This document shows, piece after piece, positions 24,151-64,000 of a DNA stretch of 64,000 bases. Each line of letters begins with the position of its first letter. The stretch's first letter is position 1. The stretch spans positions 310,001 to 374,000 of the forward strand of contig NZ_QEYD01000004.1 of NCBI RefSeq assembly GCF_003122215.1. Reading direction: 5' to 3'. Position numbers and translations under genes: made by a program. The DNA comes from Pararhodobacter marinus. Its GTDB lineage: Bacteria > Pseudomonadota > Alphaproteobacteria > Rhodobacterales > Rhodobacteraceae. Under the pieces are notes generated by a model. The model made no database searches, was not told the origin of the DNA, and was given only the letters and a program-made list of their open reading frames with translations.

Positions 24151-26235
24151 ATGAGCGACAAACGCTACCGCCTGGGCATCGATATCGGCGGCACCTTCAC
24201 CGACCTGTTCGTGGTCGACGAGGTTTCAGGTGCAACGCTGTCCTTCAAGACGCCCTCGGTCCCGTCGGACCCGGCGCAGGCGGTGCGCAATGGCGTGCGG
24301 ATCCTTGAGGAAGAACACGGCATTCCCGCCGCGCAGATCGGCTACTTCGTGCATGGCACCACGCTGGGCCTGAATACGCTGTTGCAGCGCAACGGCGACC
24401 GCGCGGGGCTTCTGGTCACCAAGGGTTTTCGCGACGTGCTGGAGATCGGCCGCCTGCGGCTGCCCGATCCGACAAATTACTATGTCGAGCGTATCAAGCC
24501 CTTGATCGCCCGCGACGATGTGCGCGAGATCGACGAGCGGCTGGGCGTCGATGGCCGGGTCATCACCCCGCTCGATCTGGACGCGGCCGAGGCCGCTGCG
24601 CGCGACCTGCTGGAGGCGGGCGCAAAGACGCTGGCCATCGTTTTCCTGCATTCCTATCGCAATTCCGTGCATGAGGCCGCACTTGCGGCCCATCTGCGCC
24701 GCGTCTTCCCCGGCACCTATGTCTGCGCCAGCCACGAGGTCTGGCCCCAGCAGCGCGAATACGAACGCGGGCTGGTGACGGCGATCAACGCCCATATCGG
24801 CGATCGCATGAAGCACTATTACGCCCGTTTGCACGACGACATGGCCGAGGCCGGGCTGACCGCGCGGCTGATGACCACCAAGTCGAATGGCGGCATCATG
24901 GCCGCCGCCAGCGCCGCCGAGGCGCCTGTCGAAACGCTGCTGTCGGGGCCCGCCTCGGGGGCGATGGGCGCGCTGATGGTCGGGCGCTCGGGCGGTTACG
25001 ACAAGCTCATCGGCTTCGACATGGGCGGCACCTCGGTCGATGTGGCGATCATCGACGGCGACGTGCTCTATTCCACCGAAAGCCGGATCGGGGATTTCCC
25101 GCTGATCATGCCCGCCGTCGATATCTCGTCCATCGGCGCGGGTGGCGGGTCGATCGCGTGGCTCGATGCCTCGGGCATTCTGAAGGTCGGCCCTCACAGC
25201 GCGGGCGCGATGCCCGGCCCCGCCGCCTATGGCCATGGGGGCGAGCAGCCCACCGTGACCGACGCCTATGTCCGCATCGGTCTCTATGCCCCCGACCGCG
25301 TGCTGGGCGGCGGGCTGCGGCTGGATCGCGCCAAGGCCGAAGCCGCGTTGCAGACCATCGCCGCCCCGATGGGGCTCAGCACCGCCGAGGTCGCGCAGGG
25401 GATCCTCGACGTGACGACTGCCAACATGTTCGCGCAGTTCATGCCGCTCATGGCGCGCAAGGGGCTTGACCCGCGCGACTTCAAGCTGCTGGCCTATGGC
25501 GGCGCCGGGGCGCAGCATGCGTTTCTTCTGGCGCGCGAAGTGGGTGTCGACGCGGTGCTGGTGCCTGCCTCGCCGGGGACACTCTGCGCGCAGGGCAGTC
25601 TGGGCGCCGATCTGCGGCAGGACTTCATCCGCACTTTGCCCGCCCATGCCGGCGCCGCCTCGCTGACCGAAGCCTGGGACGCGCTGATGGCCGAGGGCGA
25701 TGCCTGGCTCGATGGCCAGCCCGAGCGGATCACCGGCATCGAGCGGCAGCGCTCAGCGGATATGCGCTATCACGGCCAGAGCTTCGACCTGACCGTGCCG
25801 CTGCCCGAGGGCGAGGCGGTGTCCATCGACACGCTACTCACCGCCTTCCATACCGCTTACGAGCGGATCTACGGTTTTTCCGATCCCGAGGCGCTGGTCG
25901 AGATCACCAATGCCCGCGTCACCGTGCTGGGCCTGATCCCGCGCGTCGATGCGGTGCCGAAGATCGCCGAAGCGACGCCCGGCGAGCGCCCGCAACCGCG
26001 CCTGACAGCCCCGCTGATCGAGGATGGCGCTGAGGTCGATGCCGCGTTCTACGACCGCGCCACGTTGAAGGCCGGCCATGTCATCGACGGTCCCGCCGTG
26101 ATCGAGGCGCCCGATACCACGATCTACCTGCCCGGCGATTTCACCGCCGAGGTGGACGCGTTCGGCAATCTCGTCGGGCGCTTGCGTGGCGTTACCGGCG
26201 CGGCAGAACACAGCATCGCGGAGGCCAGCGCATGA
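24151..26235 (+). CDS. hydantoinase/oxoprolinase family protein, subunit A (HyuA-like)
   Basis: A 694-residue protein of the HyuA/ATP-dependent amidohydrolase and carboxylase superfamily. The N-terminal ATP-grip DIGGTFTD is at 11-18, and MGGTSVDVA and GGAGAQHAFLLARE carry further nucleotide-binding motifs of the acetate-kinase-like fold. With HyuB such proteins open 5-oxoproline, N-methylhydantoin or caprolactam with ATP, or carboxylate acetone or acetophenone. The dedicated ABC importer, HyuB overlapping by four bases and an M24 enzyme next in line favour a ring-opening amidase on an imported nitrogen compound. The precise substrate is not deducible. Confidence 0.9.
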   Translation: MSDKRYRLGIDIGGTFTDLFVVDEVSGATLSFKTPSVPSDPAQAVRNGVRILEEEHGIPAAQIGYFVHGTTLGLNTLLQRNGDRAGLLVTKGFRDVLEIGRLRLPDPTNYYVERIKPLIARDDVREIDERLGVDGRVITPLDLDAAEAAARDLLEAGAKTLAIVFLHSYRNSVHEAALAAHLRRVFPGTYVCASHEVWPQQREYERGLVTAINAHIGDRMKHYYARLHDDMAEAGLTARLMTTKSNGGIMAAASAAEAPVETLLSGPASGAMGALMVGRSGGYDKLIGFDMGGTSVDVAIIDGDVLYSTESRIGDFPLIMPAVDISSIGAGGGSIAWLDASGILKVGPHSAGAMPGPAAYGHGGEQPTVTDAYVRIGLYAPDRVLGGGLRLDRAKAEAALQTIAAPMGLSTAEVAQGILDVTTANMFAQFMPLMARKGLDPRDFKLLAYGGAGAQHAFLLAREVGVDAVLVPASPGTLCAQGSLGADLRQDFIRTLPAHAGAASLTEAWDALMAEGDAWLDGQPERITGIERQRSADMRYHGQSFDLTVPLPEGEAVSIDTLLTAFHTAYERIYGFSDPEALVEITNARVTVLGLIPRVDAVPKIAEATPGERPQPRLTAPLIEDGAEVDAAFYDRATLKAGHVIDGPAVIEAPDTTIYLPGDFTAEVDAFGNLVGRLRGVTGAAEHSIAEASA

Positions 26236-28196
26236 GCCCGATCAAGACCAGCCCCGTCCAGCTGGAAATCTTCCGCAACCGCTTTCAGGCAATTGTCGAG
26301 GAAATGGCCAGCGTCACCCTGCGCACCGGCTTCACCGTCTTCGTCAAGGAGACCGGCGATTTCGGCGCCTGCCTCGTCGCGCCCACGGGCGAGGTTCTGG
26401 CCGCACCGACCGAGGCCGCCGTCAGCCTGATGGTGGGCCTGCCCGGCTGGGAAGCGATCGGCGCCTTCGAGCACTACGAGGAAGGCGATGTCTGCATCGC
26501 CAACGATCCCGACACCACGCGCGGCCTGTCCACGCACCTGCCCGATATCTGGGTCTGGCGACCGATCTTCGTCGAGGGCGAGATCATCGCCTTTGCCTTC
26601 AACTTCATCCATTCCTCGGACGTAGGCGGGCGCGTTCTGGGGTCGATCACGCCCGTCGCGCGCGATGTCTGGGAAGAGGGGCTGCGCATCCCGCCCTTGA
26701 AGCTGATCAAGGCGGGTGTGATGAATGACGATGTGGTCAGGCTGATCTTGCTGAACTGCCGCATCCCGGATCAGAACTGGGGCGACATCAAGGCCGAGCT
26801 GGCCTCGCTCACCACTGCCGAACGGCGGGTCAAGGAATTGGCCGTCCGCTATGGCCGCGACGCGGTGCGCGACGGTATCGCCGACCTTCTGTCCAGCGCC
26901 GAGGAACGCGCGCGCAAGATCATCGCGACGATCCCCGACGGGCGCTATTCGGCCTCCGATTACATGGAGATCGAAGTCGGCGTCGACCGTCCGATCCGCA
27001 TCGCCCTGACGATGGAGGTCCGCGGCGACGAGATCCTGCTCGACTTCACCGGCTCGGACCTGCAGGTGCGCGCGGCCTTCAACCTGCCCACCTATGGGCA
27101 GCCGGGGCATTACATGATGTCGTTGGCGATGCTGAACTATTTCCGCACGCTCGACCCCGAGATCCCCTATAATTCGGGCCTGACCCGCCCGATGAAAATG
27201 ACCATCCCGCAGGGCACGATCCTGAACCCCGATCCGGGGCGCGCCTATGGCGTGCGCGCGGCGACCTTCATCCGGGTGATGGATTGCATCATGGCCTGTC
27301 TTGCACAGGCTTTGCCCGACGCGACGCCTGCAGCCTCGGCGGGGGCGATCGCCATCGTTCTGGTGTCGAACATGGACATGGAAACCGGCAAGCGGCGGAT
27401 CACCGTGGCCCAGCCTTTGACCGGCGGATCGGGCGGGCGCCCGGCGCAGGACGGCGTCGATGGCACATCCTTTACCGGCGGCTGGCTGCGCAACGTGCCC
27501 AACGAGGTGCTCGAAGCCGAGATGCCGCTCATCGTCGAAGAATACGGATACGCCACCGACAGCGCCGCCGCCGGGCGGCTGCGGGGCGGGGCCGGGATCC
27601 GGTTCCGGATGCGCAACCTGCAGGACGGCACCGCCCTGACCGCGCGCGGGCTCGAGCGGTTCCAGTTCAATGCTTGGGGCAGTCATGGCGGCAAGGCGGG
27701 CGCGAACACGCAGGTGGTGCTGAACCCCGGCACCGACAGCGCGCGCGATCTGGGCCAGATCGATCTTGTGGAACTCAAGCGCGGCGACCGGGTCGAGTTT
27801 GTCTCGCCCACCGGCGGCGGCTACGGCGATCCGTTCCAGCGCCCGCCCGCTCAGGTGCTGGCGGATGTCGTGCATGGCTATGTCTCGCCCGGGGCGGCGC
27901 AGGCGCTTTATGGCGTCGTGATCGACGGCGCAGCCGTGGACGAGGCCGCGACCGAAAAGCTTCGCCGCGGCCACGAACCCGCCACCGGCACGGACAGGGG
28001 CGCCAAGCGCGCCGCGTTCGAGCGGGACTGGCCCGAAGAGGTGCAGGCGGCCATGATCGCGGCGCTTCTGGACCGGCCCGCACCCCAGCGCGACATGCTG
28101 CGCGGCCCGCTGGAAGCGGCGATCCTGACCGAGACCCGCGCGGGCAATCCGCCCGACCGCGCGCGCATCGACGCGCTGATCGACACGCTGTTCTGA
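26232..28196 (+). CDS. hydantoinase B/oxoprolinase family protein (HyuB-like)
   Basis: A 654-residue HyuB-family subunit with the characteristic N-terminal region (VQLEIFRNRFQAIVEEMASV), a metal-site region around ANDPDTTRGLSTHLPD and the C-terminal glycine-rich SPTGGGYGDPFQRPP. About 80-100 residues follow that motif, a longer tail than the second HyuB copy in this window (544 residues). It is the partner of the HyuA gene, with which it overlaps by ATGA. HyuB performs the hydrolysis or transfer on the substrate phosphorylated by HyuA in characterised systems. The M24 enzyme gene begins eight bases later. Confidence 0.9.
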   Translation: MSPIKTSPVQLEIFRNRFQAIVEEMASVTLRTGFTVFVKETGDFGACLVAPTGEVLAAPTEAAVSLMVGLPGWEAIGAFEHYEEGDVCIANDPDTTRGLSTHLPDIWVWRPIFVEGEIIAFAFNFIHSSDVGGRVLGSITPVARDVWEEGLRIPPLKLIKAGVMNDDVVRLILLNCRIPDQNWGDIKAELASLTTAERRVKELAVRYGRDAVRDGIADLLSSAEERARKIIATIPDGRYSASDYMEIEVGVDRPIRIALTMEVRGDEILLDFTGSDLQVRAAFNLPTYGQPGHYMMSLAMLNYFRTLDPEIPYNSGLTRPMKMTIPQGTILNPDPGRAYGVRAATFIRVMDCIMACLAQALPDATPAASAGAIAIVLVSNMDMETGKRRITVAQPLTGGSGGRPAQDGVDGTSFTGGWLRNVPNEVLEAEMPLIVEEYGYATDSAAAGRLRGGAGIRFRMRNLQDGTALTARGLERFQFNAWGSHGGKAGANTQVVLNPGTDSARDLGQIDLVELKRGDRVEFVSPTGGGYGDPFQRPPAQVLADVVHGYVSPGAAQALYGVVIDGAAVDEAATEKLRRGHEPATGTDRGAKRAAFERDWPEEVQAAMIAALLDRPAPQRDMLRGPLEAAILTETRAGNPPDRARIDALIDTLF

Positions 28197-40910: not shown

Positions 40911-40941
40911 CCGCCGCTGCGAATGCCGGACCTGCGACCGG

Positions 40942-40967
40942 GCCCCCGACCTTGCGTCGGGGGCTTT
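40942..40967 (+). terminator. intrinsic terminator after the DUF4394 gene
   Basis: GCCCCCGAC (40942-40950) pairs perfectly with GTCGGGGGC (40956-40964) around a five-base loop, followed by TTT. The remaining bases to 41168 hold no convincing gene; GGAGGGAGGAG just before 41169 is the ribosome site of the next gene. Confidence 0.8.
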
Positions 40968-41168
40968 CGCGTTGAACGCGTCAGCGGGGTGCCCCGGGGC
41001 GCAGCCGGATCGCCCGCCTTTCGCGAAACGCGAATGCGGCTTTGCCGAACGGGGCGCTTCCCTTCCGCTATCGCAAAAGGAGAGGATGTCACGATCGGGT
41101 CTGCGGGGGAGCGGGGCCCGGCTTTGCCAGGGGGCTTCGACGGGAAGTCCCGGAGGGAGGAGAATTCG

Positions 41169-42254
41169 ATGAGCCTTTTCCAGAACCGCGCCGTGACCCG
41201 GCGCCGCCTTTCAGCCCTTGCCTGCGCGACCGCGCTGGTTCTGCCCGTGACGGCGCAGGCCGAGGTCGATTTCAGCGGCGAGACGGTACGCATCGTCTAC
41301 AATGCCGGCCCGGGCGGCGCGACCGGCCTGTTCGCGCAGATCCTGGCCGCGAATATCGGCCGCCACCTGCCCGGTGAGCCCGAGGTCATCGCCGAGCCGA
41401 TGCCCGGCGGCGCATTGTTGCGCGGGATGCAATATGTCTATCACGCCGAACCCGACGGGCTGACGCTGGGCTGGCTGGCCTGGGGTGGCGCGACGCGGGT
41501 GCTGGACCCCGAAGAATTGCAGATCCCGTTCGGCGAATTCGGGCTTGCGGGCGGTCTGGGCAATACCTGGGTCGTGCATGCGGCAACGTCGATGGGGATC
41601 GAGACGGGGGCCGATTTTGCCGATCAGGAGCGCGTGGTCTATGGCGGCTTCACGCCGGGATCGAGCGAGATCCGCGCCGTGGCCTCGATGGACCTTCTGG
41701 GCATCGAGACCGATTTCGTCGGCGGCTTCCGGGGCGGCGCCGAAACGCAGGCGGCGATGCAGCGCGGCGAGATCCAGATGCGCAACGGCACCGTGTCGAA
41801 CTGGCTGACCAGCGTGGTGCCCGAGATGGTCGAAACCGGCGATTCCGTCGGCCTGTTCTACTGGGGCCGTCCCCGCCAGGACGGAACCGAGGCGCCGAAC
41901 GACCAGCTCGACGGGCTGCCCACGTTCTACGACTATGTGCTGGAAGAGCGGGGCGAGGCGCCGTCGGGCGAAGCCTACGACCTGGTGCGCTACCTGTCCT
42001 CGGCCGCCGATGGCATGACCTGGATCTTCGTCACGCCGCCCGAGACGCCCGACGAGATCACCCAAGCCGTCGCCGCGGCCTACGAGGCGGTGATGCAGGA
42101 CCCGGCCATGGCCGAGGCCGCGCGCAATGTCCTGGGCTCGACCCCGGAAGTGGTGCTGCGCGACGAGGCGCTCGAGGTCATGCAGATCGTCGAAGAGGTC
42201 TCGCCCGGGATCCGCGCGACGATGCAGGCCTATATCGACCGGCTGTCGCGCTGA
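41169..42254 (+). CDS. tripartite tricarboxylate transporter substrate-binding protein (TctC family), orphan
   Basis: A 361-residue TctC/Bug-family binding protein. The signal peptide (RRRLSALACATALVLPVTAQA) precedes VRIVYNAGPGGATGLFAQILA, the usual first strand and ligand loop of the family, which binds carboxylates such as citrate, tartrate or aromatic acids. ATG 41169 follows GGAGGGAGGAG. No tctA or tctB adjoins it; a TctA-TctB fusion fragment lies 21 kb away at the right edge. Orphan TctC proteins are common in this group of bacteria and may share membrane partners. It is followed after one base by the beta-propeller protein gene and then by UbiD/UbiX. Confidence 0.88.
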   Translation: MSLFQNRAVTRRRLSALACATALVLPVTAQAEVDFSGETVRIVYNAGPGGATGLFAQILAANIGRHLPGEPEVIAEPMPGGALLRGMQYVYHAEPDGLTLGWLAWGGATRVLDPEELQIPFGEFGLAGGLGNTWVVHAATSMGIETGADFADQERVVYGGFTPGSSEIRAVASMDLLGIETDFVGGFRGGAETQAAMQRGEIQMRNGTVSNWLTSVVPEMVETGDSVGLFYWGRPRQDGTEAPNDQLDGLPTFYDYVLEERGEAPSGEAYDLVRYLSSAADGMTWIFVTPPETPDEITQAVAAAYEAVMQDPAMAEAARNVLGSTPEVVLRDEALEVMQIVEEVSPGIRATMQAYIDRLSR

Positions 42255-42255
42255 C

Positions 42256-43119
42256 ATGCTGCGCGCCGAACGATTGCTGGACCATCCGATCATCGGCCAG
42301 GGCATGGACGACCGGATGGGCAGCAACATCAACGGCCCGTGCCTGATCCGGGTGCCCGACTGGGTGCCCGGAAAGCTGGGGCGCTATTACCTCTATTTCG
42401 CTCATCACCGGGGCCAGTACATCCGGCTGGCCTATGCCGATGCGCTGACCGGGCCGTGGACGATCCACGGTCCGGGCGTTCTGCCGCTGGAACAATCGGG
42501 CTTCTCGCATCACGTCGCCTCGCCCGAGGTGGTGGTGGATCACGACGCGCGGCGCATCCGGATGTTCTATCACGGCGGCGACGTCATCAAGTTCCAGTAC
42601 ACCCGGCTGGCCAGTTCGGCGGACGGGCTGGATTTCACCGGCGGGACCCAGAACCTGATGAACCCCTATGCGCGGATCTTCCGTCATGGCGGGTGGACCT
42701 ATGCCATCGCCATGCCCGGCCAGTTCTATCGCTCGCGCGACGGGGTGTCGGACTGGCAGGAAGGCCCGTGCCTGTTCACCCGGGACATGCGCCACGCGGC
42801 CGTGCGTGTCGTGGGCGATACGCTCACCGTGATCTGGTCGAACCGGGGCGACGCGCCCGAAAGCCTCTGGCAATGCGAGATCGACCTGTCGGGCGACTGG
42901 ATGGGCTGGAGCGAAGGTCCGCACGCGCTGCTGCTCGCGCCCGAGCGGGACTGGGAAGGCGCCGGGCTTCCGGTCGAGCCGTCGGTGATCGGGCCCATCG
43001 ACGAGCCGGCCAACCAGCTGCGCGATCCGGCACTCTTTGACGAGGACGGGCAGCTTTACATGGTCTACGCGGTGGCAGGCGAATGGGGGCTGGCGCTGGC
43101 TGCGCTGCACGAAGCCTGA
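42256..43119 (+). CDS. glycosyl-hydrolase-like five-bladed beta-propeller protein
   Basis: A 287-residue protein with propeller-like repeats resembling GH43/GH32 folds (GRYYLYFAHHRGQYIRLAYAD, HHVASPEVVVDHDARRIRMF, DGQLYMVYAVAGEWGLAL). No signal peptide is visible. It begins one base after the TctC stop, so it is probably co-transcribed with it. Carbohydrate activity is not assured: many such propellers in catabolic operons are lactonases or have unknown functions. The catalytic acid residues of GH43 cannot be confirmed by eye. Confidence 0.7.
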   Translation: MLRAERLLDHPIIGQGMDDRMGSNINGPCLIRVPDWVPGKLGRYYLYFAHHRGQYIRLAYADALTGPWTIHGPGVLPLEQSGFSHHVASPEVVVDHDARRIRMFYHGGDVIKFQYTRLASSADGLDFTGGTQNLMNPYARIFRHGGWTYAIAMPGQFYRSRDGVSDWQEGPCLFTRDMRHAAVRVVGDTLTVIWSNRGDAPESLWQCEIDLSGDWMGWSEGPHALLLAPERDWEGAGLPVEPSVIGPIDEPANQLRDPALFDEDGQLYMVYAVAGEWGLALAALHEA

Positions 43120-43285: not shown

Positions 43286-44614
43286 ATGCACAGCCTGCTG
43301 AAAACGCTCGAAGCCCGGGGCGAGCTGCGCCGCGTCGCGAAAGCCGTCGACCCGCAGCACCAGCTGGCCGCCGTGACCCGGGCGGTGCAGCGTGCGGGCG
43401 GCGAGGCGGTCCTGTTTGAGAACGTCACCGGCAGCGACATGCCCGTCGTGTCCAACATCTTTGGCAGCCACCAGCGGCTTTGCGACATGATCGGCGCCGG
43501 GACGCAGACATTCAACGAGCGGTGGATCGCGCTGACCGAGGCCTGCATCGCCGCCGAACCGGGCAGCACGACCCGCCCCGCGACCGAACAGGAAGCGGCG
43601 GGTTTCGTCAGCGGCAAGCTGTCGGATCTGCCCGCCATCACCTGGCACGGGCGCGATGGCGGCCCCTATTTGACCAGCGCGATCTTCCTGGCCAACGATC
43701 CTGAAACCGGCGTCGCGAACCTGTCCTTCCACCGGTCGCAGCAGATTTCCGATCAGGAATTGCGGGTCCGGCTGGGCGGCACGCATGACCTTGCCCGCTA
43801 CCAGCGCGCCGCCGAGGAAAAGGGCGAAACGCTGGAAGCGGCGCTGATCCTCTCGGCCCCGCCCGAAATCTTCCTGTCGGCCTGCGCCTCGCTGCCCTAC
43901 GAGGCATCCGAATTGTCGATGGCCGCGCAGATCCGGGGCGAGCCGCTGGCGATGCGCAAATGCGTGACGCTGGATCTGGAGGTGCCGGCCAGCGCCGATA
44001 TCGTCGTCGAGGGCCGTTTCCTGCCGCATGAACGCCGCCCCGAAGGGCCGTTCGGCGAGTTCATGGGCAATTACGTCGAGGTGGGCCCCAACCATGTCTT
44101 CGAAATCACGCATGTCAGCTACCGCAAGGACGCGGTGCTGCACGGGCTTCTTTGCGGCTCGCCCGAGGATCTTCGCCCGCTCGAAGCCGTGACGGCGGCG
44201 CGGGTCTACCGGGCGGTCAACGCGGCGGTGCCGGGTGTGCTTGATGTCAGTTGCCGGCCGAACGTGATGATCTCGATCATCAAGATCCGCAAGGCCTATG
44301 AAGGTCATGCGCAGCACGTCTTCCTGGCCGCGCTGGCCTCGCATCTCGATTACAACAAGGTGGTGATCGTGGTGGACGAGGACGTGGATATCCACGACCT
44401 CGATGACGTGATGTGGGCCTATCTCACGCGCGGGCGGGCGGATACGCGGGCGATGATTCTCAACGATATTCCCGGCTTCTACCGCGATCCGAAAAAAGAC
44501 CATTGGGGCCGTCTGTGCATCGACGCGACGATGCCCTGGGGTCGCGAAGAGGAATTCGCCCGCAAGTCGATCCCGGGTCAGGACGAGATCGACCTCGCGG
44601 ACTGGCTGGCATGA
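43286..44614 (+). CDS. UbiD-family (de)carboxylase
   Basis: A 442-residue UbiD-family enzyme (start MHSLLKTLEARGELRRVAKA). The signature RPEGPFGEFMGNYVEVG near 250 carries the acidic residue cluster (Glu, Glu) of the prenylated-FMN site, and NALFGSH-like SNIFGSHQRLC lies near 60. Such enzymes reversibly decarboxylate aromatic, heteroaromatic or unsaturated acids. A UbiX-type flavin prenyltransferase gene overlaps its stop (ATGA), so the cofactor is made in step. At 442 residues it is nearer the short catabolic decarboxylases than the ubiquinone-pathway UbiD (about 490), and there are no ubiquinone genes nearby. Confidence 0.92.
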   Translation: MHSLLKTLEARGELRRVAKAVDPQHQLAAVTRAVQRAGGEAVLFENVTGSDMPVVSNIFGSHQRLCDMIGAGTQTFNERWIALTEACIAAEPGSTTRPATEQEAAGFVSGKLSDLPAITWHGRDGGPYLTSAIFLANDPETGVANLSFHRSQQISDQELRVRLGGTHDLARYQRAAEEKGETLEAALILSAPPEIFLSACASLPYEASELSMAAQIRGEPLAMRKCVTLDLEVPASADIVVEGRFLPHERRPEGPFGEFMGNYVEVGPNHVFEITHVSYRKDAVLHGLLCGSPEDLRPLEAVTAARVYRAVNAAVPGVLDVSCRPNVMISIIKIRKAYEGHAQHVFLAALASHLDYNKVVIVVDEDVDIHDLDDVMWAYLTRGRADTRAMILNDIPGFYRDPKKDHWGRLCIDATMPWGREEEFARKSIPGQDEIDLADWLA

Positions 44615-58183: not shown

Positions 58184-59818
58184 TCAGCCGGGTTCCAGCC
58201 CTGAACGCCGGTCACGCGCGCGCGCGGCGCGGTCGCGGCGGGCCGGATCGCCGAAACCCGCGCCGCCCGGCACCTCGAAGCACAGACGCTCGCCGGGGCC
58301 GATGATCTGGTAGCCCTTGGGCTGAAGCGCCGCGCCCGAGGCCAGCCCCAGCGCGCCCATCGCCCCCTCGGTGCCGCCTTGGCGGCCCTGCGCGCGCACC
58401 GTGGTGCGGTCGAACATCGCAAACAGCGCCACCGGGCTGCCGTCGCGGGTGGCCAGTTCGATGCTTTGCCCATAGCCGCCGCGATAGGTGCCGTCGCCTG
58501 CCGAACCGGGGCGCAGTTCCTTTTTCCACAACACGATCGGGGCGTGGCTTTCGACCACCTCGACCGGCATGGCGCGCACGCCCGAGGGGAAGGCGGTGGT
58601 GGACAGCCCGTCCGCCATCGGCCGCGCGCCGCCGCCGCCGGCGTTGAAGAACAGCGTCTCCCAGGCCGGGCCCTGCCAGTCGCCGGGGAAATGCCGCGCG
58701 ACTTCGGGCCCGCCTCTCAGCTGGATGCCCCAGAGCCCCGCCGAGCCTTCGGCCGGGACCCTGTCGGGCAGGATCTGCGCCAGGCAGCCCAGTACCGCCT
58801 CGGGCAGGAACTGGCCGATAATGTGGCGCGCGCTGACCGGGTTGGGGCGGGTGACGTTCAGGATCGAGCCTTCGGGCGCCACGACGCGGACGGCAGACAG
58901 CGACCCGGTGTTGTTGGGCACGTCGGCGCCGATGATGCAGCGGGCGCCGAAGGAGGCGTAGGCATTGGTATAATTGTAGACCAGGTTGATGCCCTTCGGG
59001 TGCGAGGGGCTGGAGCCTTCGAAATCCAGAAGCACCTCGTCGTCGCCGATGGTCAGCGTGCAGGTGATGGTGATCGGCGTACCGAAAGCATCAAGCGTGA
59101 TCGTGTTCGAGGCCGAGGTCCTGGGCAGCTTGCGGATTTCCGCAAGCATCGCGTCGCGCGACCGGGCGAGGATCTCGGCGCCGACCTCTTCCAGATCTTC
59201 CAACCCCAGCGTTTTGACCGCCTCGACCAGGACCTGTGCGCTGGCCTCGTTCGCGGCGACATAGGACAAGATATCGGCCTCGACCTCGTCGGGGGTGCGG
59301 ACATTGGCGCGGATCATGGCCATCAGATCGGCGTTCACCACGCCCTTGCGGGTCAGTTTCATCACCGGGATCGCCAGTCCCTCCTCGAAGACCGACGACC
59401 CGTCCGGGCCTTGCCCGCGTCCGCCGATATCCAGCTGGTGGCAGGTGCAGGCGAAGAAACCGATGACCCGCCCATCCTTGAAGACGGGCGATGTCACGGT
59501 GATGTCGTGCACATGCCCCGACGCGATCCACGGATCGTTGGTGATCAGGTGATCGCCCTCGTCCAGCGTATCGGCCGGATGCACGGCCAGCATCTGCGGT
59601 ACGGCGGCGACGGTCGAGTTGACATGGCCGGGCGTGCCGGTCTGGGCCTGCGCCAGCATGTTGCCCGCCCGGTCGAACAGCGCCGCCGACAGGTCGCCCG
59701 AATCGCGCACCACCGGGCTGAAGGCGGTGCGCATCAGCGTGCGCGCCTGTTCCTCGACGATGGCGATGAGGTTCGACCAGATCACCTGAAAGCGGATTTC
59801 GTCCTGTGCCTTGGTCAT
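58184..59818 (-). CDS. hydantoinase B/oxoprolinase family protein (HyuB-like), second copy
   Basis: A 544-residue HyuB-family protein with the N-terminal IRFQVIWSNLIAIVEEQARTL, the metal-site region TNDPWIASGHVHDITVTSPV, and the C-terminal glycine-rich GAGFGDPARRDRAAR. It is about 110 residues shorter than the copy at 26232-28196, matching the shorter branch of the family. Its ATG 59818 lies one base after the HyuA stop at 59820. It has no dedicated transporter beside it, unlike the first pair. Confidence 0.9.
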   Translation of the reverse strand: MTKAQDEIRFQVIWSNLIAIVEEQARTLMRTAFSPVVRDSGDLSAALFDRAGNMLAQAQTGTPGHVNSTVAAVPQMLAVHPADTLDEGDHLITNDPWIASGHVHDITVTSPVFKDGRVIGFFACTCHQLDIGGRGQGPDGSSVFEEGLAIPVMKLTRKGVVNADLMAMIRANVRTPDEVEADILSYVAANEASAQVLVEAVKTLGLEDLEEVGAEILARSRDAMLAEIRKLPRTSASNTITLDAFGTPITITCTLTIGDDEVLLDFEGSSPSHPKGINLVYNYTNAYASFGARCIIGADVPNNTGSLSAVRVVAPEGSILNVTRPNPVSARHIIGQFLPEAVLGCLAQILPDRVPAEGSAGLWGIQLRGGPEVARHFPGDWQGPAWETLFFNAGGGGARPMADGLSTTAFPSGVRAMPVEVVESHAPIVLWKKELRPGSAGDGTYRGGYGQSIELATRDGSPVALFAMFDRTTVRAQGRQGGTEGAMGALGLASGAALQPKGYQIIGPGERLCFEVPGGAGFGDPARRDRAARARDRRSGLEPG

Positions 59819-59819
59819 G

Positions 59820-61892
59820 TCAGCCCTCTTGCCCGGTATAGGTCAGCAGCACGTGGCCGCCCTGGATGCGGCGCGCGTCGAAGCCGCGCGGAACGTGGAT
59901 CGTCGTGCCCTTGTCCTTGATCAGCGCCGGGCCCGGCAGCGGTTCGGTGCCCAGATCCGCGCGCAGGATCTGCGGCGCGGGAACCATCGTGCCGCTGTCC
60001 AGATCGAAGAGCGGAGCGGTTTTCGGCAGCGCACGATCCAGCCGGTCGGCCACCGCGGGGGTCGGCGCCGTGCCCTCGGCCGCGACGCGCAGGCTCAGCG
60101 CGACGATCTCGACCGGGATCCGGTCCAGCGCGCGTTTGTAGAGCGCGGCGTAATGGCTCTGGAACAGGGCGTGCAGGCGCGGGGCGTCGGTCTCGGACAG
60201 GTCGCTGTCCTCGACCGGGATCTGCAGCGTCTGTCCCTGTCCCCGGTAGCGCAGGAAAAGCGTGCGCTGTGCCGCCTGATCCGCGCCGGGCGCGGCGGCG
60301 GCGACGAAGGCGCCGGCTTCGGCCGCCATCTCGGCATAGAGCCGGTTGTAGAGCCCGGCATCGAAACGGGCGAGCGGCATGGCGACGGTGCGGGAAAGCT
60401 CGTAGACCGCCTGCGCCTGCAGGAACCCGATGGCCGAGCCGATCCCTGCGCCCTGCGGCACGATCACCCTTGTGGCGCCAAGCTTTCGGGCGATGCGCGC
60501 AGCGTGGATGCCGCCCCCGCCGCCGAAGGCGATGATCGGCCGGTCGCGCAGATCGGCGCCCTTCTCGCGGGCATGTTCGCGCGCGGCACCGGCCATCTGT
60601 TCCTCGACAACCTCGGCCAGCGCGGCAGCCGCGGCGAGCGGCTCCAGACCCAGCGGACGACCGACGCCCTCGCTCAGCGCCTGCGTGGCGAGCGCGGCGT
60701 CGATCGCGATGCCCGATCCGTCGAAATCGCCGGGCGAAAGGCGTCCCAGTTCAAGATTGGCATCCGTGACCGCCGCCTGCATCCCCCCCCGCGCGTAGCA
60801 GGCCGGGCCGGGATCCGAGCCCGCGCTTTCGGGCCCCACCTGCAACCGGCGCTGGCCGTCGACCCGCGCCAGCGAACCGCCCCCCGCGCCGATCTCGACC
60901 AGGTCGATCACCGGGATGCGGGCGGGCAGGCCGCTGCCCTGCCGGTGCATATGCTCGCGTGCCATCTCGAAAGACGGGCTGCGGCGTGGCACGCCCTTGT
61001 CGATCAGGCAGACCTTGGCGGTCGTTCCGCCCATGTCGAAAGCCAGGATCGCGTCCTCGCCCAGTTCCCGGGCCAGCCCGGCGGCAAAGACGGCGCCTCC
61101 CGCCGGGCCGGATTCGACCAGCCGGATCGGAAAACGCCGGGCAATGTCGAGATGACACAGGCCGCCGTTCGACAGGAACATGAAGACCGGCGCAGACACG
61201 CCCAGCGCGGTCAGCCCGGTTTCCAGGCGGTCCAGATAGCTTGCCACCAAGGGCTGCACGAAGGCATTGGCGGCAGTGGTCGAGAACCGGGCGTATTCGC
61301 CGATCTCGGGGGACACGTCGCTCGACAGACTGAGGCTCACGCCCGGCAGCAGCGGTTGCAGGATGTCGCGCGCGCGGCGCTCATGCGCGGGGTTCACATG
61401 GGCATGCAGGAAACACAGCGCGACGCTTTCGATGCGCTCATCCCTGAGCTGCCCGGCAAGGCGGTGCAGAGCGTCTTCGTCCAGGGGGCGCAGGACAGAG
61501 CCGTCGGCGGCCAGCCTTTCGGGCACTGCGAAGCGCCACCAGCGCGGGATCAGCGGTTCGGGTTTGACGATGGTGATGTCGTATTGATCGAACCGCCCCT
61601 CATCGCCCATAGCCAGCACGTCGCGAAAACCGTCGGTCGTGACCAGCGCGGTGCGCGCGCCCTGCCGCGCGATGATGGCATTCGTAGCCAGCGTGGTGCC
61701 GTGGACGATGCCGGTGACATCGCCGGGGGCATAGCCCGCCTCGCGCAGGATCTGCTGCACGCCCTGCAGGATCGCCTGATCCGGGGCTTTCGGCGTGGTG
61801 GGCAGTTTCAGGGTGCTCAGCCCCCGGGGCGTGGCCAGCGCGAAGTCGGTGAAAGTCCCGCCAACGTCGATGCCGATACGGATCTCGCTCAT
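59820..61892 (-). CDS. hydantoinase/oxoprolinase family protein, subunit A (HyuA-like), second copy
   Basis: A 690-residue HyuA-family protein with DVGGTFTD at 9-16, the second ATP-fold motif DMGGTTAKVCLI, and FGGGGGIHAARIARKLG near 470. It pairs with the HyuB gene after one base. ATG 61892 is taken because the ATP-binding strand starts at SEIRIGIDVGG. It is divergent from the M28-like gene across 204 bases that hold an inverted repeat at 61931-61947. The substrate is unknown; the first HyuA copy is only a distant paralogue by motif comparison. Confidence 0.9.
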   Translation of the reverse strand: MSEIRIGIDVGGTFTDFALATPRGLSTLKLPTTPKAPDQAILQGVQQILREAGYAPGDVTGIVHGTTLATNAIIARQGARTALVTTDGFRDVLAMGDEGRFDQYDITIVKPEPLIPRWWRFAVPERLAADGSVLRPLDEDALHRLAGQLRDERIESVALCFLHAHVNPAHERRARDILQPLLPGVSLSLSSDVSPEIGEYARFSTTAANAFVQPLVASYLDRLETGLTALGVSAPVFMFLSNGGLCHLDIARRFPIRLVESGPAGGAVFAAGLARELGEDAILAFDMGGTTAKVCLIDKGVPRRSPSFEMAREHMHRQGSGLPARIPVIDLVEIGAGGGSLARVDGQRRLQVGPESAGSDPGPACYARGGMQAAVTDANLELGRLSPGDFDGSGIAIDAALATQALSEGVGRPLGLEPLAAAAALAEVVEEQMAGAAREHAREKGADLRDRPIIAFGGGGGIHAARIARKLGATRVIVPQGAGIGSAIGFLQAQAVYELSRTVAMPLARFDAGLYNRLYAEMAAEAGAFVAAAAPGADQAAQRTLFLRYRGQGQTLQIPVEDSDLSETDAPRLHALFQSHYAALYKRALDRIPVEIVALSLRVAAEGTAPTPAVADRLDRALPKTAPLFDLDSGTMVPAPQILRADLGTEPLPGPALIKDKGTTIHVPRGFDARRIQGGHVLLTYTGQEG

Positions 61893-61930
61893 GTCTGTGG
61901 TTCCTCGCCGGGCGTTCCGTTGTTCATTAT

Positions 61931-61947
61931 TCATTATTTGTTAATGA
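61931..61947. promoter_or_regulatory. inverted repeat TCATTA-TTTGT-TAATGA between hyuA and M28-like gene
   Basis: Six-base arms (61931-61936 and 61942-61947) are perfectly inverted in the only AT-rich patch of the gap, 38 bases before the hyuA start. CATTAT is also directly repeated (61925-61930 and 61932-61937). It is a good operator candidate for the GntR protein at 57458-58120 and could affect both divergent genes. Confidence 0.5.
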
Positions 61948-62096
61948 CAGTGAAATGACAGACCGCCCCGGTCCTGTCAATCGGTCCGCTCCGGGGCCGG
62001 CGGGCAGAGCTTTCGGCATTCGCAACAGCGGCTTTGCCGCATTCGGGGCTAGGCAATGCCTCTCGGCGTCGTATCCCTCGAAGAAAGGAGGATCCG

Positions 62097-63272
62097 ATGA
62101 CGATTTCAGACTTGCGGCGCGATCTTGCCCGCCACGCCGGATTTGGCGAGAAATACACAGGCGGGCCCGGCGATCTGGCGACGGCCGCGTGGATCGAGAC
62201 GGAATTGCAGGCGGCAGGGTACGAGACCTGGCGTCAGGACGTGACACTGCCGCGCAACCGGGTGGACCGGTTGACGCTGTCGGGTCTGGACGTGGCGCTT
62301 TACGCCCAGCCCAACCTGGTGCCGGGAACGGTGACGGCGCCGCTGCGGGTGATCCATGACCGGGTTCAGGCGGCGCGCGCTGCGGGGGCCATCGCGGTGA
62401 TCCGGGCGCCTTACGGGCGGCATTCGACGATCTGGCTGCCGCCCTTCCGCGACCTGATCGCCGATGCACTCGAGGCCGGGGCGAAGGCGCTGGTGGTGCT
62501 GCCGACCGGTCCCTCGGGCGATATCGTGGGGTTGAACACCTGGGCGGATCGTCCCTTCGCGCCAGTGCCTCTGGTCATCGGGCGGCCCGACGATCTGCCG
62601 CTCTACCTGCGCAACGAGGGGCAGACGCTGACTCTGACCCTCAGCGGCGCGGTCGAGCCGGTCGCATCGCCCAATATCCTGGCCCGCCGGATCGCCGGGC
62701 CGCGCTGGATCGGCCTTTCCACCCCGCGCACCGGGTTCTTCACCTGCCTGACCGAGCGGGGATCGGGCACGGCGGCGTTTCTGGCGATGGCGCGTCGGCT
62801 GCCCGCTTTGTACCCGGAGCGCTCGGTGTTCCTGATGAACACGACCGGGCACGAGCTGGCGTTCGGCGGGACCCATGCCGCGCTGGATCACGCGCCGCCG
62901 CCCGAGGACACGGATGCCTGGGTGCATCTGGGCGCGACGCTGGCGTCGAACGACCAGCAGGAGACGCGCAACGGCCAGATGCTGAGCGTCGCCGATCCCA
63001 ATCGCGTGGTGATGGCGTCCGAGTCGATGCGGGACGCCTGCGCGGATGCCTTCGCGGGACTGTCCGGTCTGGCGCCGCCGCGCGCGGTCGTGCCGGGCGC
63101 GGGCGAATTGTCGACCATCGTCGATCTGGGATATCGCAACGCCTTCGCGGTGCTGGGGCAGGGGCGCTGGTTCCACACGCCGCAGGATACGCTCGACAAG
63201 CTGGATCCCGGGCTGCTGGCGCCGGTCGTCGAGGCGCATTTGCGCGCGCTCGACGCCGGGTTGCGGCTCTGA
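62097..63272 (+). CDS. M28-peptidase-like protein with PA insert, metal ligands apparently lost
   Basis: A 391-residue protein that resembles M28 aminopeptidases in layout, with a PA-type insert (about 85-185) and the final HTPQDTLDKLDPG histidine motif. By eye, other ligands appear replaced: the HxD segment reads GLSTPRTG, the DNGSG region reads ERGSG, and the EE pair reads GHE. So a standard di-zinc peptidase site looks unlikely. ATG 62097 follows a strong AAAGGAGG. It is divergent from hyuA. It may be a binding or regulatory derivative, or use a different metal arrangement. Confidence 0.78.
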   Translation: MTISDLRRDLARHAGFGEKYTGGPGDLATAAWIETELQAAGYETWRQDVTLPRNRVDRLTLSGLDVALYAQPNLVPGTVTAPLRVIHDRVQAARAAGAIAVIRAPYGRHSTIWLPPFRDLIADALEAGAKALVVLPTGPSGDIVGLNTWADRPFAPVPLVIGRPDDLPLYLRNEGQTLTLTLSGAVEPVASPNILARRIAGPRWIGLSTPRTGFFTCLTERGSGTAAFLAMARRLPALYPERSVFLMNTTGHELAFGGTHAALDHAPPPEDTDAWVHLGATLASNDQQETRNGQMLSVADPNRVVMASESMRDACADAFAGLSGLAPPRAVVPGAGELSTIVDLGYRNAFAVLGQGRWFHTPQDTLDKLDPGLLAPVVEAHLRALDAGLRL

Positions 63273-63285
63273 CGCGGCTGCGCGC

Positions 63286-64000
63286 CTACCAGAGATGGGC
63301 GCGCAGGAACCGGACGTTCAGCACCTCGCCATAAAGGAAGTACAGCACGCAGCCCGCGCCGACGGCATAGAGCGCCACGCCCCAGAGCGGGCGCAGCCGA
63401 CCCACCAGCAAGAGATAGGCCACGACAAAGCCGACCATCGCCGCGATCTGTCCCACCCACCAGGCGGCCAGCACCATGGCCAGCAGCAGGCCGAAGAACA
63501 CCGCCGTGCGCACGGGCGCATCGACGGCAGGCAGCGTTTCCCCGCCCCGCAGGCCACGCCGCAGATCGGCAATCAGCGCAAGCGTGCAGGTCACAAGCCC
63601 GCCCACGGTGACGATCATCGGCATGGTGCGCGCAAAGAGCGACCAGTCCAGCGCCTCGATCAGGGCCCAGCCGAACAGCACGATCAGCGCCGCTCCGAAG
63701 CCTGCCGACAGCCACGGGTTGCGCGCCGCCCCTTCCTGTGCCGGGTTGTCGGAGGCGGTCACCGCCATGCGCCGGGCGCTCCAGAACGAATAGACCATGA
63801 AGACCAGCACGCAGCCCAGCAGGAACAGCGTCTGCGGACGGGCAAGGAAGTCGGCGGGCGCGTAGGACTGGATCGCCAGCACCGCCGATTGCTCCATGAT
63901 CGAGCCCAGCACGAAGCCCAGCACCAGGGGCGGGCGCGGCCATCCTGCCTGTCCCATCAGCCAGCCCAGCACGCCGAAGCCCAGGAGCATGTACCAGCTG
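63286..64000 (-). CDS. 3' part of a TctA-TctB fusion (tripartite tricarboxylate transporter), cut by right edge
   Basis: The frame is open to base 64000, so the N-terminal part lies outside. The first visible residues (MLLGFGVLGWLMGQAGW, then PPLVLGFVLGSIMEQSAVL) match the C-terminal end of TctA, and after a short linker a TctB/DUF1468-like four-helix domain follows (GFGAALIVLFGWALIEALDW, FVVAYLLLVGRLRPLWGVAL). TctA and TctB are usually separate genes. The protein would be the sodium- or proton-driven membrane part of a carboxylate importer. The ATG at 63990 is internal, not the start. Confidence 0.8.
   Translation of the reverse strand, partial: SWYMLLGFGVLGWLMGQAGWPRPPLVLGFVLGSIMEQSAVLAIQSYAPADFLARPQTLFLLGCVLVFMVYSFWSARRMAVTASDNPAQEGAARNPWLSAGFGAALIVLFGWALIEALDWSLFARTMPMIVTVGGLVTCTLALIADLRRGLRGGETLPAVDAPVRTAVFFGLLLAMVLAAWWVGQIAAMVGFVVAYLLLVGRLRPLWGVALYAVGAGCVLYFLYGEVLNVRFLRAHLW

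Follow-up and report, generated by a model that had tools for sequence, protein, structure and literature searches.

Organization of the locus

The 64,000-nucleotide stretch of Pararhodobacter marinus DNA analyzed here (the window) contains an uninterrupted gene of 391 codons on the forward strand (P0001, 62097 to 63272), which runs from an ATG to a TGA (63270 to 63272) and is preceded, 5 nt ahead of the ATG, by an AGGAGG ribosome-binding site (62086 to 62091, +). An earlier reading made from the sequence only had described an intact frame with a strong ribosome site next to hyuA, and this description is confirmed. The divergent neighbor of the M28-like gene, 162 bp away, encodes a HyuA-type hydantoinase/oxoprolinase (59820 to 61934, −) and adjoins a gene for a HyuB-type hydantoinase/oxoprolinase (58184 to 59818, −); for neither of these two genes is the adjacency to the M28-like gene conserved. 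On the other side, a fused TctA-TctB transporter gene, of which the part encoding the C terminus lies in the window (63286 to 64000, −), is convergent with the M28-like gene and runs past the end of the window.

Two genes located farther upstream belong to the recurring partners discussed below. The first encodes a divergent TctC-like solute-binding protein (40923 to 42254, +; start codon unsure), for which the Pfam TctC match is under the cut-off (E = 0.0019). It directly precedes a gene for a protein related to the GH43/GH130 propeller enzymes (42256 to 43119, +), the start codon of which was picked by comparison with relatives. A UbiD-type decarboxylase gene (43286 to 44614, +) comes after the propeller gene. 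The window also holds a second HyuA/HyuB-type pair (24151 to 28193, +), which is 34% and 30% identical, respectively, to the pair adjoining the M28-like gene. At an E value of 0.001, the window protein was its own sole match within the P. marinus genome; a second Pararhodobacter genome carries a copy of the M28-like protein that is 71% identical.

Family membership and predicted fold

Searches for relatives returned 135 loci, and the best 80 were kept. The main alignment (80 rows) comprised the window protein, L002, L003, L004, and 76 of these 80 loci, leaving out L006 (apparently the same contig as L002), L028, L031, and L071; the start codons of the relatives were set by script and some were shortened by hand. 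A profile search that used no sequence patterns, run on 385 Alphaproteobacteria genomes, added seven sequences and brought the family to 87. At an E value of 1e−5 or better, that search gave 15 matches, consisting of the window protein, the seven members (E below 1e−20), and seven weaker matches that were not counted (L116 to L122). The comparison set consisted of 32 M28 proteins (34 minus L153 and L116), including L117 and L118, which were also weakly matched by the family profile.

The window protein scored 24.7 bits (E = 2.1e−5) against the Pfam M28 profile (PF04389), for which the gathering score is 21.3, although this profile matched just 13 of the 80 family members at an E value of 0.01. 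A PA domain was matched in 18 of the 80 members. The profile built from the 80 members matched solved M28 enzymes with E values of about 1e−11 (6.1e−11 for the BSAP/YwaD type). An AlphaFold2 model computed with 78 members (pLDDT 95.5, pTM 0.92) had as its closest solved structure the BSAP aminopeptidase of B. subtilis (PDB 6hc6), with a Z score of 34.6 and 3.2 Å over 360 residues, and further matches included an Aneurinibacillus aminopeptidase (Z = 31.6), transferrin receptor 1 (Z = 29.9), and a Shewanella M28 peptidase (Z = 29.3). The structure comparison was also run with Foldseek. Structure prediction, which had been proposed as a check on the assignment, returned an M28 fold. We dismissed a chance resemblance to M28 because the Pfam score exceeds the gathering score, the profile E value is about 1e−11, and the predicted fold matches. 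By homology and predicted fold, the window protein belongs to peptidase family M28.

In a quick tree of 103 rows, which included 16 of the 32 comparison proteins, the 87 family rows were split from these 16 rows with an SH-aLRT support of 99, and the window protein fell in a clade of 12 rows with a support of 100, both values coming from a quick search that warned of long branches. The window protein matched no NCBIfam model, and a search of phage records for relatives gave no match. Searches of an open-access library returned no description of this M28-like family, the papers returned being concerned with other families, among them the M64 peptidases, and with glutamate carboxypeptidase 2 of C. 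elegans. The protein is not classified as an M28 di-zinc aminopeptidase or as a glutaminyl cyclase, since defining residues of each were looked for and found to be replaced.

Residues at the metal sites

A cropped hhalign alignment of the family profile with the 32 comparison rows (E = 4.6e−11 for the catalytic region) paired P210-R211-T212 (62724 to 62732, +) with the HxD motif, E220 with the bridging Asp, H252-E253 (62850 to 62855, +) with the EE motif, E337 (63105 to 63107, +) with the Asp of the M28 “SD” motif (“SDH”), and H360 (63174 to 63176, +) with the final metal-ligand His. A joint MAFFT alignment agreed on the pairings of HxD, E220, H252-E253, E337, and H360; a profile alignment limited to five rows (E = 1.5e−5), which begins at residue 215, gave the same pairing for E220 and H252-E253. 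The sequence-only reading had held that HxD and the first Glu of the EE pair appear replaced, and both statements are borne out. The profile and MAFFT alignments place P210 at the His and T212 at the Asp of HxD, so that the second-site His and its Asp are lost, and His252 occupies the place of the first Glu.

Seven residues, namely, C217 (62745 to 62747, +), E220 and R221 (62754 to 62759, +), E253, E337, H360, and D364, show no variation across the family (87/87), and all seven are also kept in the seven sequences, originating from five genomes, that were found by the pattern-free search. One of the two scan patterns contained TPR and also C217; C217 was still present in all seven pattern-free sequences. 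R211 of TPR was rejected as a fixed active-site residue, the pattern-free sequences carrying Q (three), L (two), or F (two) at this position.

Within the family, the position of the HxD His is occupied by Pro (85/87) or Ala (2/87) and the EE position by HE (85/87) or AE (2/87). Among the 32 comparison proteins, the HxD His, the HxD Asp, and the bridging Asp are each present in all rows, and EE is present in 28, the remaining four having GHS (three) or GHH (one). A His at the first EE position is thus not, by itself, diagnostic of the family. The residue following the bridging Asp is Asn (27) or Asp (5) in the comparison rows versus Arg in all 87 family members. For the second-site Asp, the alignments are ambiguous: MAFFT pairs it with the invariant G279, two residues after H277 (62925 to 62927, +; 83/87), and hhalign pairs it with E289 across gaps of 4 and 6. 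This Asp is either lost or moved, and H277 lies at its position or two residues before.

As aligned, the five classical ligand positions include two identical residues (E253 and H360), one Asp-to-Glu change (E220), one plain loss (P210), and one position that is lost or shifted (the second-site Asp). Three of the five are still filled by an acid or a His in every one of the 87 sequences. The earlier statement that most zinc ligands had been lost was overstated, the E220/E253/H360 triad being kept throughout the family, and the motif HTPQDTLDKL, which had been read as intact, is present and contributes H360. The bridging Asp had been listed among the replaced residues; the residue is indeed changed, but the change is acid for acid, with Glu in all 87 sequences. 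The alignment with active M28 enzymes, suggested at that stage as a check, upheld P210 at the HxD His but left E220, E253, and H360 in place and offered G279 or E289 for the second-site Asp.

Some sequences depart from these patterns. L112 and L113 are family members with SGAE replacing GHE, so that H252 is replaced by Ala, and with Glu at the position of H277; they represent a second variant within the family. The alphaproteobacterial M28-like protein L118 has intact HxD and NDN motifs, GHH replacing EE, and Glu at the position of the second-site Asp; it may represent a separate rewiring of the M28 fold. L152, L159, and L163, which are M28 proteins of one genome, have GHS in place of EE and keep HxD and the bridging Asp.

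Selection and predicted location

Seven pairs were tested; six of them were diverged and gave Nei-Gojobori dN/dS ratios of 0.12 to 0.19, and the remaining one was near-identical and uninformative. The two pairs involving the window protein were near saturation (dS 1.3 to 1.4). The M28-like gene is under purifying selection. We rejected a decaying pseudoenzyme on this result together with the residue conservation in 87 sequences. The idea that an M28-like subfamily with a nonstandard active site has been kept holds; it is a conserved version of the M28 fold in which the active site has been rearranged, probably around one metal, and not a ruined peptidase.

No signal sequence was seen in the window protein. 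With start codons set mechanically or by hand, an RR pair near the N terminus was counted in 2 of the 12 members of the window clade and a hydrophobic stretch ahead of the conserved core in none of the 12; the corresponding counts for the rows of the main alignment outside this clade were 60/68 and 56/68, so that export signals are present in most members there. Because of the 2/12 and 0/12 counts, the window clade looks cytoplasmic.

Gene neighborhood in relatives

HyuA and HyuB were each found in 1 of the 82 loci of relatives, in the same locus, several kilobases away, and as weak matches. A tie between the M28-like subfamily and HyuAB, which had been proposed as something to look for, is rejected on this count; what recurs in the window clade is the association with solute-binding and propeller proteins. 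Anywhere in the 82 loci, we also counted TonB receptors (47), type B carboxylesterases (31), β-lactamase-fold proteins (26), GntR regulators (25), and MFS transporters (20), which are broad families whose counts in part reflect chance matches. The S8, M14, and membrane dipeptidase neighbors encountered in plasmid loci were present in 1 of 82 loci each, and no link to peptide breakdown is therefore claimed. The plasmid-borne members L003 and L004, from Sphingopyxis and Novosphingobium, lie near TonB receptors and peptidases. In three plasmid records, the M28-like members are annotated “hypothetical protein.”

In the window clade, a GH43/GH130-like propeller protein and a solute-binding protein are encoded in the region of the M28-like gene in 10 of the 12 members. 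In six loci, a gene for an SBP_bac_6-type protein directly precedes the M28-like gene, with the propeller gene just past the latter, in line in L010 and L012 and on the opposite strand in L007, L008, L009, and L011. In L014, the genes for a TctC-type protein, the M28-like protein, and the propeller protein are consecutive. The three Pararhodobacter members have TctAB and TctC-like genes beside the M28-like gene, and their propeller gene is immediately preceded by another TctC-like gene. This latter gene pair is found at a distance of 7 kb from the M28-like gene in L005 and L006, compared with 19 kb in the window (40923 to 43119). A search of the L013 and L015 genomes revealed no propeller gene.

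Surveys of genomes extended these observations. In the genus, 3 of 18 genomes carried the M28-like gene, and these three were also the ones that carried the propeller gene; taking the window genome as given, the probability that the other two coincide by chance was calculated by hand as 1 in 136. In the class, the propeller protein was detected in 2 of 385 Alphaproteobacteria genomes, the same two that have M28-like matches at E values below 1e−100; L111, the M28-like protein of the second of these genomes, falls outside the window clade in the tree. Four further genomes of this survey with a family match at an E value below 1e−20 had no propeller gene. Outside the window clade, the propeller gene was present in 8 of the 46 genomes searched and absent from 38, and in L063 the M28-like and propeller genes are found in one 13-kb locus. 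Short stretches around the propeller gene in nine other genomes contained no M28-like gene.

The model of the propeller protein (pLDDT 94.2, pTM 0.92) matched β-mannan phosphorylases and GH43-type enzymes (Z = 26.5, 2.8 Å over 258 residues). The Pfam GH43 profile matched six relatives, and these only below the cut-off. In L133, the propeller gene lies beside an apparent sulfatase gene, identified by eye, and the stretch examined contains no M28-like gene.

Proposed mechanism and alternatives

Our best reading, in which we place middling confidence, is that the window protein is a one-metal M28-fold amide hydrolase or cyclase acting on an imported carboxylated compound. We prefer it because the E/E/H positions and Arg221 match the precedent of the single-zinc glutaminyl cyclases and because a His general base has a precedent in the E151H variant of the Aeromonas aminopeptidase (see below). 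The cytoplasmic enzyme would have given up the second metal site. It would work with a single metal, probably Zn, coordinated by E220, E253, and H360, which stand at the positions of the residues that bind the lone zinc of glutaminyl cyclases. From the general-base position, His252 would serve to activate water or to help an internal attack along, and Arg221 and H277 would take up the space of the former second site, where they may bind a substrate carboxylate. The enzyme would probably hydrolyze or cyclize an amide of a small, carboxylated molecule imported by a transporter that depends on a solute-binding protein, with the GH43/GH130-like propeller enzyme acting alongside.

Arg221 and the HxD position also bear on a different arrangement, in which the site would have been rebuilt to hold two metals, E220 bridging them, E253 and H360 holding one, and H277, C217, or E289/D286 replacing the lost ligands at the other. 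This we regard as rather unlikely. The conservation of H277 (83/87) and C217 (87/87) fits it, as do the pairing of the acid E289 with the Asp ligand by hhalign and the location of H277 near the end of the predicted strand 272 to 278, since the Asp ligand of canonical M28 enzymes follows the matching strand. However, the HxD His is Pro or Ala in every family member, MAFFT pairs the invariant Gly279 with the Asp ligand, and Arg221, adjoining the bridge, would be expected to crowd or repel a second cation. The loss of both HxD and the general-base Glu and the strong structural similarity to transferrin receptor 1 could also be accommodated by a noncatalytic M28-fold protein serving for binding or as a scaffold. 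We consider this unlikely, as all 87 sequences share the E/E/H triad, C217, R221, E337, and D364 even though identity to the window protein drops to 31% in the 80-row alignment, and members adjoin transporter and enzyme genes.

The metal-ligand positions shared with glutaminyl cyclase, and the membership of HyuAB in the hydantoinase/oxoprolinase family, would fit a pathway in which a glutaminyl-cyclase-like enzyme would form a pyroglutamate-like product to be opened by the neighboring HyuAB. Such a pathway is most improbable given that HyuAB is near only 1 of 82 relatives, that the catalytic Glu201 of the cyclase is replaced by His, and that Asp248 has no clear match; we know of no cyclase activity in this M28-like family. 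The invariance of C217 could instead point to metal-free catalysis by C217, H252, and H277 as active groups. We hold this to be very improbable, since it leaves the retained E/E/H triad unexplained, and metal-free catalysis has, to our knowledge, no precedent in the M28 fold.

Returning to the one-metal hydrolase or cyclase, we would extend it to the whole family as a possible but doubtful scheme. The family would form an unnamed branch of the M28 fold, present in alpha-, beta-, and gammaproteobacteria, with one metal held by E-E-H, a His general base, and an Arg filling the vacated site; in one clade, it would be coupled with differing types of solute-binding proteins to the GH43/GH130-like partner and would degrade an imported amide-containing, possibly sugar-linked, carboxylate. 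M28 aminopeptidases are a textbook two-zinc family. If the proposal is true, a natural one-metal branch with a swapped general base would show the M28 fold moving between two-metal, one-metal, and binding-only states. Since members in the three plasmid records are annotated “hypothetical protein,” the genes surrounding them have no assigned pathway and can be tested directly.

Comparison with known M28-fold proteins

The window protein resembles the zinc aminopeptidases of the BSAP/YwaD type (PDB 6hc6) in its whole-length predicted fold and, in 18 of 80 family members, in a match to the PA domain. It differs from the BSAP/AAP type by the replacement of HxD by P-x-[ST], of the bridging Asp by Glu, and of EE by HE and by a second-site Asp that is not clearly kept. 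The His at the position of the general-base Glu is shared with the E151H variant of the Aeromonas proteolytica aminopeptidase (PDB 2anp), a laboratory mutant that the title of the entry calls functional and in which both zinc sites are said to be otherwise intact. In comparison to this mutant, the change found here occurs in nature and goes together with the loss or alteration of the second site.

The three retained positions invite comparison with the glutaminyl cyclases. Human glutaminyl cyclase is reported to bind one zinc through Asp159, Glu202, and His330; its second site is empty, and Ser160, directly after the bridging Asp, is turned into the active site and given as blocking the second site (PMC11312887). 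Bacteroidal glutaminyl cyclases are reported to bind a single zinc as well, an Asp taking the place of Glu at one of the ligand acids, and Glu201 is given as the catalytic residue (PMC7948796). By alignment, E220, E253, and H360 occupy the positions of Asp159, Glu202, and His330 of the human enzyme as described there, the three positions being filled by Glu/Glu/His here versus Asp/Glu/His in the cyclases, and Arg221 takes the position of Ser160. Unlike in the glutaminyl cyclases, Glu201 is replaced by His252 (85/87; Ala in 2/87). The human enzyme keeps the second-site residues His140 and Asp248 (PMC11312887), whereas the window protein has lost this His and shows no clear counterpart of Asp248.

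Transferrin receptor 1 is similar to the window protein in fold. The transferrin receptor has the M28 fold and is not an enzyme, and since it also scores a Z of 29.9 against the predicted model, the fold by itself is no proof of catalysis. The family described here differs from it by the E/E/H triad, which is invariant in 87 of 87 sequences.
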